From IMG/VR virus record IMGVR_UViG_3300009788_000227, positions 1-33,216 of that record: a stretch of 33,216 nucleotides of DNA, one strand, 5' to 3'. Made by a program: the position numbers and the translations under genes. Below, piece by piece: positions 7,012 to 15,969 of the stretch (its first letter is position 1; the number at the start of each line of letters is the position of its first letter). The notes under the pieces are model-generated. The model saw only the letters and a list, made by a program, of their open reading frames with translations. It was not told where the DNA came from and did no database searches. The DNA is from a virus.

Positions 7012-9525
7012 TTAGCTTTTTGTTCCACGCTGAATCCAACGATAATCAATGATGGTTGCAGCAGCTACTTGTCTGATCTTATAAGTGATCATGTCAGCAT
7101 CAAACATTGATCCAGCTGTTGGAGTGTTGATTCCTTGAACGAAGATGTCAGGTTGTGAACGACCACCCAAGAAACCAACAGCAATTGTGTCAGCATCTTT
7201 GGGACTTGCGGCAACATACCAATAAAGAACTCTAGCAGCAGCGGTCCCCAAACCAAGGGTTCCGAGAGCCTTCATTCTGAACTTCGTCATCAAAACGTTT
7301 TTGATGGTTGAATCTTCGGCACTTGTTGCTTTGGCAGTTGATCCAATGATCTCTTCAGCAAGGGCTTCTTGATCAACAGAACTCAACAAGAAATGAGGGG
7401 CAAGGCCCATCTTCTCATCAGATTCAAAAGCGGTCTGATTTCTCAGTCCCTTCACACCAACAACAACATTGGCATAACTCAAGGCCACATCTCCAAGATC
7501 GTTATTGTGATCTGCATGGAAAAGGGTCTTACTATCTGCTGCCAATACTGGATTCAATTCAATTTCATCCCAAATGAGACCGTGAATTGTCAAGTTGGAA
7601 GCTCGGGCCAATTTTCTGGGGATCTTACGGATGATTCCCATATTGTCGGCCAAAACAGATTCCCAAGTGACGATTTCCAAACCACCATATTTGTCGGGAG
7701 TCATTGTTTCGACTTCCTCGGTGGTGTCAGGGTTGATTTCTTGATAAGGAGCTTTCTGGTTGACTATTGGCAACCTTTTGCTCTCACCGGTTCTAACAAC
7801 TCGGAAAGGATTGGTGGCATCTTGAAGATTCTCGATGCTTGAAACAATGTCTCTCCAATCACTTCGGGGGTCCATTGTGGTTTCTTTTTGAAGGCGACGA
7901 TAAAGAGAATCACCGAAACCAATAGAGAAATCACCAGTAGCGGTTGATTCCCTCAAACTCTGAGAAGTTGAACGATTCCAACTCTCTCTCAATTTATTGG
8001 AGTGTTCTTGATAAGGGTTGCCATCATCCCAGTTCAGACCACCTTCGCCTGGAAGTCCTCGGGCCATTGATTCAAAAATATGGCGGCTGATTTGTTGGTT
8101 ACTACCACTCAAGGCTTTAAGATTACCTTTATTATAGGCTCTCCAAGCTTCTTTGAGATTGTTGAAACGGGGAACGCCGTCGACGTCATCCATCTCATAC
8201 ATTCCATCCCAAGCTTTGGCCAACTTTTCTTTAAGGCCATCGCCAACTTTAGCTTTCTTTAGAGCATCGTCGTCATCATCATGAGCATCACCAAGATCAC
8301 TAACGCCACCGTTGTTTTCTTTGAATGTGGCGATATAGTCTTTTTCAGCCTTAATGGCTTCCTGAATCTTTTCTGCGGTCACTTCTTCTTGACCGTCAAA
8401 CTTTTCAGTGATTTTCTTCTTTGCCTGTTCGGGCAAATCAGATGCAAGCAACGCTTCTTTCACCAAGACTTGGCACTCTTTGATACGTGAAGCCTTTTTT
8501 TCTTCGTCAAATACTTTTTGCTCTTCAGCAAGTTTTTCCTGAGCTTCTTTGAGTTCTTGAGCTGTTTTCATTTCCAAATCCTTTTCTTCGTCGCTTATAT
8601 AAGCACCATCTACTGATTCTTTGATATCTGAGGGAATAGCATTCAAAAGTTGATCGAATGAAATTCCTGTTACCCTTGCAAACCCTTTAAGGCGTTCGTT
8701 CGGCGGTCTTTTTATACTTCCATCTAAAATTTGTGAGACTGTACCGGCATCAATGCCAGCAGCTTTTCCGAGATCAGCAGTGGAGAGCCCTTTGGCTTCC
8801 ATGGCCTTCCTCAGCATATTACCAAGGGGGGATCCCGCTTCTTCAAGCTTAGATTCAAGAACTCTTTTTTTGAAATCGTCATCAGATTCACCATCATTCT
8901 GGTTGATACCGAGCTTTTCAGCGAGTTTCTTAAAATCTTTCATGCCTTCTCCCTTTTTTTCTTTACTTGCAGCGATACGAAGCAATCTTCCCCCGGCTGA
9001 TGGACTGGTCACAAAGTCAGTTGATTCAACATGCTCCAATGATTCAACAATAAGAGCCTGTTCTCCTTCAATGATACCTTCTCGAACCTCACCATGGGCA
9101 TCAATAGAAAATCCGAACAAATCAGTTTTCCCATTTGCAAAGGCATCTTTCATGCCCTTCATAATGCGGTCTTGACCTTCGAGAACTTTTAATCTTGCAA
9201 CGATTCCATGACCCTTTGAACCATCTGGTTTGGTGAACTCTTCAAATCGAGCGTTTTCAAACCATCCAATTGTATTCATGCCAGGGCCAGCTGGATTGTT
9301 TTCAGCATTACCTTCATCACGATGATTAAAATTGTCACCTTCTAAGAAAACGCAACATTTCACACCTTCAAAGCGGCTTACTGAATTTTCTAGAAGTTCA
9401 TTCGAATAGAATTTTTTATTGTGGGAGAGGCCGGATTCAATGAGAACAACATCCCATTCTTTGCCTGATTTGCCCTCAACATCGTTGAGTAAAAAGACAT
9501 TATTTTTCTCGTAGAATCTTTTCAT
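7012..9525 (-). CDS. Prohead protease - XRE HTH - scaffold - major capsid fusion
   Basis: An 837-aa protein with four visible parts. Residues 1-185 look like a prohead serine protease, with His68 in FNHRD, Ser140 in LFGFSIDAHG and a closing ESTDFVTSPSAGGR segment. Residues about 233-297 are a classical XRE/Cro helix-turn-helix (LSTADLGKAAGIDAGTVSQI). Residues about 312-405 are a charged coiled coil that fits a scaffold. Residues about 425-837 fit a major capsid protein, with Trp/Thr-rich strands and the C-terminal ATIIDYRWIQRG. Protease-capsid fusions are known in tailed phages, and the protease would cut the chain during head maturation. The embedded HTH is unusual. No strong ribosome site precedes ATG 9525. 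Two better ones lie inside the gene. Confidence 0.85.
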   Translation of the reverse strand: MKRFYEKNNVFLLNDVEGKSGKEWDVVLIESGLSHNKKFYSNELLENSVSRFEGVKCCVFLEGDNFNHRDEGNAENNPAGPGMNTIGWFENARFEEFTKPDGSKGHGIVARLKVLEGQDRIMKGMKDAFANGKTDLFGFSIDAHGEVREGIIEGEQALIVESLEHVESTDFVTSPSAGGRLLRIAASKEKKGEGMKDFKKLAEKLGINQNDGESDDDFKKRVLESKLEEAGSPLGNMLRKAMEAKGLSTADLGKAAGIDAGTVSQILDGSIKRPPNERLKGFARVTGISFDQLLNAIPSDIKESVDGAYISDEEKDLEMKTAQELKEAQEKLAEEQKVFDEEKKASRIKECQVLVKEALLASDLPEQAKKKITEKFDGQEEVTAEKIQEAIKAEKDYIATFKENNGGVSDLGDAHDDDDDALKKAKVGDGLKEKLAKAWDGMYEMDDVDGVPRFNNLKEAWRAYNKGNLKALSGSNQQISRHIFESMARGLPGEGGLNWDDGNPYQEHSNKLRESWNRSTSQSLRESTATGDFSIGFGDSLYRRLQKETTMDPRSDWRDIVSSIENLQDATNPFRVVRTGESKRLPIVNQKAPYQEINPDTTEEVETMTPDKYGGLEIVTWESVLADNMGIIRKIPRKLARASNLTIHGLIWDEIELNPVLAADSKTLFHADHNNDLGDVALSYANVVVGVKGLRNQTAFESDEKMGLAPHFLLSSVDQEALAEEIIGSTAKATSAEDSTIKNVLMTKFRMKALGTLGLGTAAARVLYWYVAASPKDADTIAVGFLGGRSQPDIFVQGINTPTAGSMFDADMITYKIRQVAAATIIDYRWIQRGTKS
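8569..8585 (-). promoter_or_regulatory. Second internal ribosome binding site and ATG (Met319)
   Basis: AAAAGGA at 8585-8579 lies seven bases before an in-frame ATG (8571) that begins MKTAQELKEAQEK, the first turn of the coiled-coil scaffold. Initiation here would give a scaffold-capsid product lacking both protease and HTH. Confidence 0.35.
8941..8954 (-). promoter_or_regulatory. Internal ribosome binding site and ATG (Met195)
   Basis: AGGGAG at 8954-8949 lies five bases before an in-frame ATG (8943) that begins MKDFKKLAEKLG. Initiation here would give a 643-aa HTH-scaffold-capsid product without the protease. This is like lambda Nu3, which starts inside gene C. The match to the anti-SD is better than at the gene start. 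Confidence 0.45.
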
Positions 9526-9571: not shown

Positions 9572-9613
9572 GGATTGTTCACAAAATAGATTTAAATATT
9601 ATGTGAACAATCC
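9572..9613 (-). repeat. 12-bp perfect inverted repeat upstream of capsid fusion gene
   Basis: GGATTGTTCACA (9572-9583) and TGTGAACAATCC (9602-9613) form a perfect inverted repeat around 18 AT-rich bases. On the minus strand it is followed by ATCTTTTTC, so it can act as a terminator for the 9639-10043 gene. The arms also overlap a possible promoter (TTGTTC, 16 bases, TATTTT) for the capsid gene, so an operator is a second reading. Confidence 0.6.
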
Positions 9614-11101: not shown

Positions 11102-11839
11102 TTAGGAGTCGTTTAGTAATAGAAATAATTTTTGGAATGAACTTGCACCACCACCGTTGAACGGGTTTAAGTAAATAGGGGCCAAATTATTGAAAACGTC
11201 CAACGGATTCAAAAGGGTGTCGTCAAGTGCTATGTAAAACAGATGACCGTCTGTGCTATTACTATCATTTCCAATACGCATTTTCGCCAGGGTGTCAGAC
11301 AAACTCTGAAAAAGATTGGCGGCTGGAGAATTTGTTACCTCGTCCTCCACTCCGTTTGTGAACTGAGAAGTCCTGTTTGTAGTCGTATTGAATTGGGTGG
11401 TAATAACCATTGGGATCGACAAATCAGAAATAACAGCGCCCATCCATGCGTCACGATTTACGCCATCACCTATCAGGGAAAATGGGGTTTCAGCCCCAGC
11501 AAAATACTGCTGATAACCCTGGGCACCTGCAAATAAATTGACCGTTTTCCTGACATGGTTTCGGGTGGAGGTTTTCAAGGTGTGCTTCGCAACCACTGTC
11601 AGAGTTAGGTCGCTGGTCGTAATGTCACCCACGGTACCGCTAAGAGCTTCCAAAAACTCGGTAGTGTCAGGACTTACGGCAGGGTGCCCCAAATGAGCGT
11701 CTAAGGTATATAAAGGCTGATCCGCCTCGGTTAATTGTGAAAAAACATCCGAACCTGCCGCCTGGCTGGTCCAAGTTTCCACATCAGGTCCGTTTAGACC
11801 TATTCCGAGATGGGATTCTAATAGAACCTTATTGGTCAC
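11102..11839 (-). CDS. LamG/concanavalin-like virion protein (probable insertion)
   Basis: A 245-aa protein that matches the pattern of phage LamG-like lectin folds. Near the N-terminus a V.tWts.a...F.Q......P.Y....LGhPAV segment (residues 20-57) mirrors 'v..W.D.sg.....q....qP......ng.p.v.f'. At the C-terminus KMRIGNDSNSTDGHLFYIAL and NNLAPIYLNPFNGG resemble the 'G......f.G.iaev' edge strands. The fold binds sugars or acts as an attachment domain. Its G+C is visibly higher than its neighbours: 52% in line 11641-11700, against 32% in line 12961-13020 of the portal gene. This suggests later acquisition. Confidence 0.6.
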   Translation of the reverse strand: MTNKVLLESHLGIGLNGPDVETWTSQAAGSDVFSQLTEADQPLYTLDAHLGHPAVSPDTTEFLEALSGTVGDITTSDLTLTVVAKHTLKTSTRNHVRKTVNLFAGAQGYQQYFAGAETPFSLIGDGVNRDAWMGAVISDLSIPMVITTQFNTTTNRTSQFTNGVEDEVTNSPAANLFQSLSDTLAKMRIGNDSNSTDGHLFYIALDDTLLNPLDVFNNLAPIYLNPFNGGGASSFQKLFLLLNDS

Positions 11840-12095
11840 TTGTTATCACCACATCCTTATAATAGCCCAACTCCTGTACGGCGTGGCCGTCAATTAAATC
11901 GTAGTCCTTTAAAAGCTCTAGGTGAAAGCTCTTTTCACTCAATTTAACAATACATGTCTCACCGTCTTCGTGGTGGATGCACTTGCCATGTGACCGGGGC
12001 GCTACGATTTTTAAAGCCTCATTAACCTTTTTCAAAAAAGCAACGCCTTCAGCGTGGGTATCGAAAACAACGTACATTTTTTCTTTATGTGACAT
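11829..12095 (-). CDS. 88-aa protein of unknown function, head cluster
   Basis: A small soluble protein with a ferredoxin-like alternation of strands and helices (KMYVVFDTHAEGVAFLKKVNEAL ... HAVQELGYYKDVVITS). It overlaps the portal gene by 11 bases at its start and the LamG-like gene by 11 bases at its end. It shares the raised G+C of the LamG-like gene, so the two may have arrived together. No family is recognised. Similar small proteins next to phage fibre genes often act as chaperones, which is a possibility only. Confidence 0.6.
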   Translation of the reverse strand: MSHKEKMYVVFDTHAEGVAFLKKVNEALKIVAPRSHGKCIHHEDGETCIVKLSEKSFHLELLKDYDLIDGHAVQELGYYKDVVITSDQ

Positions 12096-13518
12096 TTTTT
12101 GACTCGTCGGTTTCTTCTTCTTTTTCTTTCTTCAAAAATCTATTTTTAAGAATTTTAACATCCTTCAAATCTTCAGGGTCAAAATCTTCCATCAAACTTC
12201 CAAGCTGCTCCAATGAATTTCTGTAAATTTCTGCAGCTTCTTTATTTGAAATATATTGTTCAGCTACGGCATCTGGAAGAGTTGTCCCTAAATCAATTAA
12301 TGCCGCTGTCATAACTTTGATATCTCTCAAAAGTATTGGAGACATTGATATTTTGAAACTGAAATCTGTAACGCCTTCCAACTTACCTTGTTCTTTGGCA
12401 ATTTGAATTTGATATTTGAATATTTTGGTAAGCATGCGTTTCCAAAAATTTTGCCTTGCCTTAATGGCCCTGGCAACAGGCATTGATAATTCGGATGCGC
12501 TACCTTTTGTCAGGTCTTCAGCATCACCAAAGAATAATCCAGCCAATCTCATTCCCGCTTGAATTTGACGGAGCAGTATAGAAATCACAGTTTCGGCATC
12601 AGATGCGGCAAGCTCGGGGGCCATTATCTCCAACTTGACTTTCTCATTGTGGGCATATGCTCCGCCCTCTTTCAAACTATTAATGAATTCCAAAGCCATT
12701 TCACGACATTCTTTATCATTTGCACCCTCATAAGTGAGGTCAAAAACAATGTCTTGGGCTAAAGAGCTTCTTTCCATAAGTGCAAACAACATACCATCGA
12801 GGCCTTCAAGCCAATCAACAGCCGGCAACATATCGGGTACGCCACGACTTCCACCACTTATTCTGTTAACAGTAAAATAAAAGGCTTCTCCCTCAAGTTT
12901 ACCATCATCATTCATGTTGATGATTTCAAGTTTTGGCTTTTTCTTCAAACCTGTAACGATGTGCGTAACTTCTTCAGCATCTTTTTTACTTCTCAGAACA
13001 TTTTTTATTTTCAATGGAGATATTGTGGAAAGTTTCACAATGGCGGTTTTATCATTTATGAATACTGGATAAACCTGTTCCCCTAACAATGAAAGAGCTC
13101 GCATACGCTCTTCAATTTTGTCATCCCACTCGTTTAATTCCCAATGCTGATCTAAAATTTCCTGAACTTTGGGATCTACGGCCTTATGTTTGATTCCATC
13201 ACCAAGAACGAAATCTTTCATAATTTCAGTTCCACTCCATGCTCTACAATTTTTACGGAATAGAAGAACTGCCAGTCTTTGGGCTTTTAACAGAGTTTGT
13301 TGAGGTAAATCAATATCGGTAGTTCCACCCAATTGCTGAAAAAAAATATCATCAAAATCTGTACCTTCATCAAGATTAGATGTTTGGGTAAAAATGGTTT
13401 CGGTTAATCTTTTTACAGTTTTTGGTCTTGGTAAAGCTGAACCACCACCTCTAATATCTTCGGGATCTACCTTAACTTCTTTCAATTCCTTTTTCTCTTT
13501 AGACCAAGAAAATCTCAT
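12085..13518 (-). CDS. Portal protein
   Basis: A 477-aa protein following the large terminase by four bases. It has the portal layout. The N-terminal clip and stem lead to an FRKNCRAWSGTEIMKDFVLGDG segment. Beta-strand wing regions follow (VYPVFINDKTAIVKLSTISP), then IQAGMRLAGLFFGDAEDLTKGSASELSMP and a long helical C-terminus with ARQNFWKRMLTKIFKYQI. The segment 'G.p..l.g......sgaa...' followed by a long helix is typical of portals of the SPP1 gp6/HK97 gp3 type. The dodecamer forms the DNA entry vertex and docks terminase. The C-terminus is acidic and Lys/Glu-rich. Confidence 0.9.
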   Translation of the reverse strand: MRFSWSKEKKELKEVKVDPEDIRGGGSALPRPKTVKRLTETIFTQTSNLDEGTDFDDIFFQQLGGTTDIDLPQQTLLKAQRLAVLLFRKNCRAWSGTEIMKDFVLGDGIKHKAVDPKVQEILDQHWELNEWDDKIEERMRALSLLGEQVYPVFINDKTAIVKLSTISPLKIKNVLRSKKDAEEVTHIVTGLKKKPKLEIINMNDDGKLEGEAFYFTVNRISGGSRGVPDMLPAVDWLEGLDGMLFALMERSSLAQDIVFDLTYEGANDKECREMALEFINSLKEGGAYAHNEKVKLEIMAPELAASDAETVISILLRQIQAGMRLAGLFFGDAEDLTKGSASELSMPVARAIKARQNFWKRMLTKIFKYQIQIAKEQGKLEGVTDFSFKISMSPILLRDIKVMTAALIDLGTTLPDAVAEQYISNKEAAEIYRNSLEQLGSLMEDFDPEDLKDVKILKNRFLKKEKEEETDESKNVT

Positions 13519-15561: not shown

Positions 15562-15767
15562 GATTCAACATCACTATTAGAGTTGAATTCTATTCGATCT
15601 ATTAATTTTTCATCAAACCACGAGGTCTTTTGCTCCTTATCATCCAGATAAGTCAATTCGTACTGAATGGAGCTTCTTCTTATCAAAATAGCACTTACGA
15701 AACTCTCCGTTGTCGGCGTGATCATAATAGTTTGATTGAGCTTATAGTTTGTTGATTCTCTAGTCAT
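15558..15767 (-). CDS. 69-aa protein of unknown function
   Basis: A small soluble protein with alternating strands (SFVSAILIRRSSIQYELTYLDD) and a short C-terminal Ser/Asn tail. It resembles a small beta-barrel of the kind that reads out translation or DNA signals, but no family can be named. It overlaps the XRE gene by eight bases at its start and the membrane-helix gene by ATGA at its end, so it is co-translated with both. Confidence 0.55.
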   Translation of the reverse strand: MTRESTNYKLNQTIMITPTTESFVSAILIRRSSIQYELTYLDDKEQKTSWFDEKLIDRIEFNSNSDVES

Positions 15768-15969
15768 GTTGGCTTATCGTTTCCCCAATAGCACTCAATA
15801 CCTGATCAGCCGTAACACCACATATCCTCGAAAATGTCGTAATCCGCATTGTGGGCATAATCCTTTTCCCATTCTCCCAATGATCCAATGTCCGAAGACC
15901 TACTCCCAATAACCTACAAAATTCTTTCCGATGAATACCAGTACCTTTACGCATCTCCCTTAAATTCAT
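15760..15969 (-). CDS. Small XRE-family DNA-binding protein
   Basis: A 69-aa single-domain helix-turn-helix protein. Residues 10-40 (GIHRKEFCRLLGVGLRTLDHWENGKR) carry the XRE pattern with the recognition helix ending in WENGKR. A stabilising helix follows, with VTADQVLSAI at the end. It lies in the packaging operon between the AP2 gene and the terminase. It could regulate the late operon, or contribute to packaging-site recognition in place of a small terminase. Its codons show the same strong strand skew as the AP2 gene. Confidence 0.8.
   Translation of the reverse strand: MNLREMRKGTGIHRKEFCRLLGVGLRTLDHWENGKRIMPTMRITTFSRICGVTADQVLSAIGETISQHD

Follow-up and report, generated by a model that had tools for sequence, protein, structure and literature searches.

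The locus examined here raises the question of why a phage should carry, inside the precursor of its capsid, a helix-turn-helix (HTH) domain of the kind found in repressors. The window, i.e., the whole stretch of DNA analyzed, was a virus record from IMG/VR, 33,216 bases in length. The original prediction had read one of its frames as a protease-like domain, an XRE-type HTH, a coiled-coil scaffold and a capsid protein, naming no strand, and this reading was borne out. The gene lay on the minus strand (7012..9525), as do the features of this gene and its upstream region given below unless stated, while the plus strand across the same interval was riddled with stops. It encoded a polyprotein of 837 aa in the order protease, HTH, scaffold and capsid, based on the ORF, Pfam, AlphaFold2 and an alignment of the fusion family. 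The full-chain AlphaFold2 model, built on a 31-sequence alignment, showed an N-terminal domain rich in beta structure, followed by five short helices (residues 233–296), a long helix (312–361) and an HK97-like capsid.

At the C-terminus, residues 527–831 matched PF25209 (Phage_capsid_4; 1.2e-23, 85.2 bits against a Pfam cut-off of 27). Structure comparison placed this part in the HK97/encapsulin fold, with a match to 1ohg at E 2e-7, and PHROGs grouped it with head maturation protease/major head proteins. The mature HK97-fold major capsid protein is predicted to span residues 527–837 (7015..7947). Residues 304–526 (7948..8616) formed the coiled-coil/scaffold region in the AlphaFold2 model, with numerous predicted cleavage motifs. 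A Pfam profile search with residues 1–230 gave no match, Peptidase S78 included. Two fusion relatives (L058 and L078) did match Peptidase_S78, and H68 and S140, candidates for the catalytic His and Ser, were near-invariant across the fusion family, so that residues 20–190 (8956..9468) can be regarded as a prohead-protease-like domain by family relation.

Fusions of prohead protease and capsid are already known (NCBIfam NF045540 and NF045541; PHROG 133, 4523 and 29592), and they share with the window a protease, a scaffold and an HK97-fold capsid in one chain, with matching capsid halves. The window protein scored 102.7 and 110.5 bits against NF045540 and NF045541, through its capsid part only and far below their cut-offs of 475 and 525; it also has an added HTH. 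Its best PHROG was 29592, of unknown function. The same domain order was found elsewhere. A contig from another metagenome (L001) carried the same chain at 838 aa and 85% identity with conserved neighbors, and one from a further metagenome (L037) carried an uninterrupted chain in the same order at 69% identity. Since the chain is intact in these three independent contigs, the joining of two genes by an assembly error, which had been named beforehand as a possible refutation, is ruled out. In the nearest isolate, Microcystis phage Mae-JY22, the fusion was present without the HTH, and a search of genome contigs returned one distant capsid relative and nothing else. In the first alignment of the fusion family, 3 of the 29 proteins had an HTH (within the chain in the window and L001, at its very N-terminal end in L017), and the domain is thus dispensable in most fusion phages.

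Both a profile search and structure prediction identified residues 233–299 (8629..8829) as an XRE-type HTH, as originally proposed. Residues 234–298 scored above the gathering cut-offs of three Pfam models, HTH_26 (34.1 bits, cut-off 22), HTH_31 (34.0, 27) and HTH_3 (30.8, 23), and phmmer matched the domain to variants of the 434 repressor. The helices at 233–296 had pLDDT values of 81–89 in the full chain, with a core of 95–98 when the domain was modeled separately, and the five-helix model aligned with the structures of 434, P22 c2 and SinR at target-normalized TM scores of 0.76–0.84. A chance HTH-like stretch is ruled out by the Pfam models, AlphaFold2 and the 434 matches. The domain was also under strong constraint. 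In pairwise comparisons, dN/dS was 0.023–0.048 for the HTH, the lowest of all polyprotein segments, vs. 0.125–0.196 for protease and capsid; between the window and L037, the best of all 67-residue segments began at residue 234. Because synonymous sites were not conserved, this constraint acts on the protein. An antisense ORF of 140 aa (8753–9175, plus strand), shared in part by L001, lies over the HTH region; synonymous changes argue against its being coding, and it was rejected as the source of the conservation.

Searching IMG/VR viral contigs with degenerate DNA for GxIx[RC]PPxxRLxGFA yielded 39 stretches, all in frame within HTHs, where fewer than one chance match was estimated from the pattern information. 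A second pattern, in which RLxGFA was left free, gave 19 stretches, of which 6 were new; all six kept the Arg of RLxGFA, while the rest of that stretch varied. Positions fixed by the search pattern were left out of the conservation evidence. Once identical cores were collapsed, the subfamily comprised 33 distinct members besides the window. In most of these ORFs the HTH was fused either to capsid or to a head protease, the proteases being unrelated to one another (S78, S49, Mu-I); partners were assigned by Pfam or PHROG profiles of differing strength. The partner was Peptidase_S78 in L060, L064, L065, L067, L076 and L085; S49 in L054, L062 and L088; a Mu-I or head maturation protease in L047 (to which L071 was close), L063, L069 and L072; DUF2213/head maturation protease in L056; a protease-like PHROG with portal/head domains in L051; PF25209 capsid in L058, L078 and L087 and, by overlap with known fusions, in L017/L048, L045 and L050; and HK97 capsid in L079. 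It was weakly or not identified by profiles in L080, L082, L083, L084 and L052, with L083 and L084 grouped from a reading of the sequence alone. Three versions of the HTH were small standalone proteins (the L044 group, L075 and L086), and in L044/L049 the standalone HTH belonged to a head-gene cluster, with genes for an S78 protease and a capsid downstream of it.

Among 50,697 isolate phage records, three HTH queries from the family retrieved no head proteins, a direct search of isolate phages with the window HTH region returned repressors only, and a plasmid search returned ordinary XRE regulators. No description of an HTH/XRE domain joined to a prohead protease or capsid was found in the open-access literature searched.

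The HTH tree split into two branches, one with RPP and no C-terminal Cys (n = 13, including the window) and one with CPP and a later GC (n = 21). The two cysteines of these motifs co-occurred in 21 of 21 members and were both absent from the other branch; a disulfide or metal pair is possible. Mean net charge was +1.6 in the window's branch and -7 (down to -16) in the Cys branch, which thus holds 21 of the 34 HTHs and is acidic on average. The core of helix 3, TVxQIL, was kept across very different phages. The starred branches of the tree forced at least three changes for capsid-fusion partners and at least four for Mu-I (a label that includes L083), indicating that the HTH has moved repeatedly between head proteases. 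These forced moves, together with its recurrence beside S78, S49, Mu-I-type and DUF2213 proteases and capsid, imply that its function goes with the head protease/scaffold. The pattern suggests that phage head assembly has a recurrent component not described so far.

The original prediction also proposed that the HTH could be released by cleavage, and conserved predicted sites on either side of the domain support this. At its N-terminal border stands L-E-E/A (the slash marking the predicted cut, here after E229; 8836..8847), with (L or M)-x-E/A in L001 and L037 as well. At its C-terminal border stands I-K-E/S after E303 (8614..8625), also present in both relatives, so that [LM]xE/A and [IM][KR]E/S bracketed the HTH in all three internal-HTH proteins of the window's type. 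Where the HTH was N-terminal (L017/L048, L045 and L050), L-R-E/A followed it at the same offset. A predicted maturation site, L-R-E/S after E526 (7945..7956), marks the start of the capsid domain and was conserved in the family, with Glu in 28 of 31 members and Ala or Ser next in 30 of 31. Among non-redundant members, [LIMF]xE[AS] occurred 208 times ahead of the capsid vs. 28.5 in residue shuffles, a 7.3-fold excess. Replacing E with D, K, R, Q or A gave 0.5–1.8-fold, shifted spacings 0.8–2.0-fold and the capsid part 0.8-fold. As the shuffles were made within related proteins, with shared ancestry and helix patterning not fully modeled, cleavage is a prediction. Two motifs, at residues 30 and 161, fell within the folded protease, and the distant capsid fusions L058 and L078 had no cleavage motifs adjoining the HTH. 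The gp21 protease of phage T4 cleaves after L/I-X-E and cuts the scaffold down to fragments (PMC9026906). The window shares with this system the predicted L/I-x-E cut, a scaffold in many pieces and a capsid N-terminus whose maturation follows this rule. It differs in that protease, scaffold and capsid are separate in T4, where there is no HTH, and in that cleavage is only predicted here.

A second product may arise by internal initiation. An in-frame ATG following the protease domain was found in 29 of 31 family members; in the window it encodes Met195 (8941..8943) and is preceded by the Shine-Dalgarno (SD)-like AAGGGAG (8949..8955), and its predicted product would comprise HTH, scaffold and capsid without protease. 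SD matches of at least 5 nt preceded 16 of these 29 starts vs. 21 of 456 other internal ATGs, a comparison that ignores relatedness and in which the best Met was chosen from a few candidates. In the wider subfamily, SD-supported starts lay between protease and HTH with S49 (L054, L088), Mu-I-like (L047, L083), S78 (L065) and capsid-fusion (L078) partners. Linker ATGs were SD-supported in 6 of 25 cases vs. 7 of 148 elsewhere (p = 0.004), yet just 6 of the 16 loci in which the HTH follows the protease had such a start between the two. Nested protease/scaffold genes are known from lambda (C/Nu3) and Mu (I/Z), where, as predicted here, an in-frame internal start after the protease yields the scaffold product. 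The window differs in that its predicted internal product includes the capsid and begins with the HTH, since use of Met195 would place this domain at the head of the scaffold product.

The reading that we favor, with roughly even chances of being correct, is a prohead protease–scaffold–capsid polyprotein whose XRE-fold domain serves as an assembly or docking module and is cut out at maturation. The protein would probably exist in two forms, a minor full-length one with the protease and one of HTH, scaffold and capsid beginning at Met195. In many or all scaffold arms, the HTH would cap the N-terminal tip that points inward, by analogy with HK97, in which the N-terminal domain of the capsid protein serves as the scaffold and the scaffold arms touch the portal (PMC10275583). 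There it would most likely dock in the prohead core, contacting neighboring arms, protease or portal (12085-13518 in the window). The activated protease would then cut after [LIMF]-x-E, freeing an HTH of about 74 residues (230–303), chopping the scaffold and maturing the capsid between E526 and S527. Assembly or docking is favored because the HTH follows the protease/scaffold and not any one phage, because its helix-3 core is conserved and because most members are acidic. Moreover, the name helix-turn-helix need not mean DNA binding: a scaffold domain of P22 so named binds coat protein, a structural role (PMC9965877). Both are helical scaffold domains, but that of P22 is a C-terminal, two-helix U-shaped motif, neither of XRE fold nor N-terminal to the scaffold. 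Several observations count against the favored reading. The window HTH is mildly basic and looks like a DNA-binding XRE domain. Other points against it, given above, are the absence of the HTH from most fusion phages, the minority of loci with an SD-supported start between protease and HTH, the missing motifs beside the HTH in L058 and L078, and the limits of the cleavage-motif test. A role at the arm tip fits less well with L017/L048, L087, L050 and L067, in which the HTH precedes the protease and only full-length copies would carry it.

The main rival, chiefly for the window's branch, is that the HTH grips DNA within the prohead, at the packaging vertex or as DNA comes in, coupling entry to scaffold release or protease action; we consider this possible rather than probable. 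Its canonical fold, near that of 434, P22 c2 and SinR, would suit such a role, and its net charge of +3 equals that of 434, with basic residues (K272, R273, R278, K280 and R284) near the loop from helix 3 to helix 4 and Q265 of helix 3 mostly retained. The scaffolding protein gp7 of phi29 reportedly binds DNA, offering a precedent. However, HTHs of the sister branch are joined to the same partners, and their mean charge of -7 is unfavorable to DNA binding. In addition, T4- and HK97-like phages cut their scaffold and remove most of it before or during DNA entry (PMC9026906; PMC10275583), and cleavage is predicted to free the HTH here. Binding to phage DNA in the prohead, one of the two roles first suggested for this domain, is unsupported so far, though the charge of the window HTH leaves room for it. 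A broader proposal, speculative and rather unlikely in our view, is that of an undescribed, mobile HTH module of head assembly in many uncultured phages, in which many copies of a DNA-binding-type fold, at the scaffold-arm tips and next to unrelated proteases, line the prohead interior and sense or grip DNA (or the portal), coupling packaging, scaffold release and protease action.

The other role first suggested was that of a regulator. Unassembled polyprotein or freed HTH could bind an operator and tune late-gene or capsid expression, as might be expected from the HTH family and from the standalone versions, one of them in a head cluster. The sole dyad upstream of the polyprotein gene could be taken for its operator. 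As RNA, this dyad (9572..9613, 47 bases before the gene) folds into a hairpin with a U-run behind it (z-score -6.3); it was conserved in L001, where changes within it preserve pairing, and more weakly in L037. A terminator or leader hairpin is therefore likelier than an operator, for which there was no evidence, and the element resembles a terminator that would precede a separate capsid transcript. The conservation of the helix-3 core in distant phages, whereas this core is variable in repressors, and the acidic branch also speak against sequence-specific regulation, which is unsupported so far and which we regard as unlikely. The window HTH shares with XRE/Cro-C1 repressors (434, P22 c2, SinR) the five-helix fold and clear Pfam membership, and differs from them in lying within a head polyprotein, in its many acidic relatives and in having no identified operator.

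It is quite unlikely that the HTH is cargo, carried into the head by the scaffold/capsid fusion, kept after cleavage and injected like T4 internal proteins. The predicted cleavage sites flanking it and the presence of a methyltransferase (L019) or zinc ribbon (L011/L012) in family chains elsewhere would fit this idea, as would the loading of fusion proteins by T4 via a cleaved targeting peptide (PMC9026906). Against it, the HTH shows unusually high sequence conservation even among distant phages and stays with the protease/scaffold instead of being swapped for other cargo, and nothing points to its retention in the virion. A decayed, functionless remnant of a regulator left by accidental fusion could account for the absence of the HTH from most fusion phages of the family, but is contradicted by the strongest purifying selection in the protein and by independent recurrence with many partners, and can hardly be entertained.

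While protease–scaffold–capsid fusions were known, the recurrence of a repressor-type fold beside unrelated prohead proteases, under greater constraint than the capsid itself, has not been described in the open-access literature searched. The HTH module represents a conserved component of head assembly that is not apparent in isolate phages; it comes with exact predictions of cleavage and start sites, and it offers a handle on the function of the inward tips of scaffold arms. Further features were seen in the family and in the window. One member of the fusion family (L019:5056-7887) had a complete SAM methyltransferase domain at its N-terminus (Methyltransf_11, 5e-21), possibly an encapsidated enzyme, and two others (L011:5362-8007 and L012:5305-8022) carried, close to the N-terminus, a stretch resembling a zinc ribbon (DZR, 0.004). 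The ORF of 1246 aa at L051:1166-4903 joined an RNA-ligase-like stretch, portal/head-morphogenesis parts, the HTH and a head maturation protease. Beside the minor head gene, dissimilar proteins (window 11102-11839, L001:2995-3693 and L001:3712-4479) had in common a C-terminal SSFxKLxLLxN/D, resembling an attachment tag. Finally, the window encoded a second small XRE-type HTH protein, of 69 aa, upstream of the terminase gene (15760-15969, minus strand).
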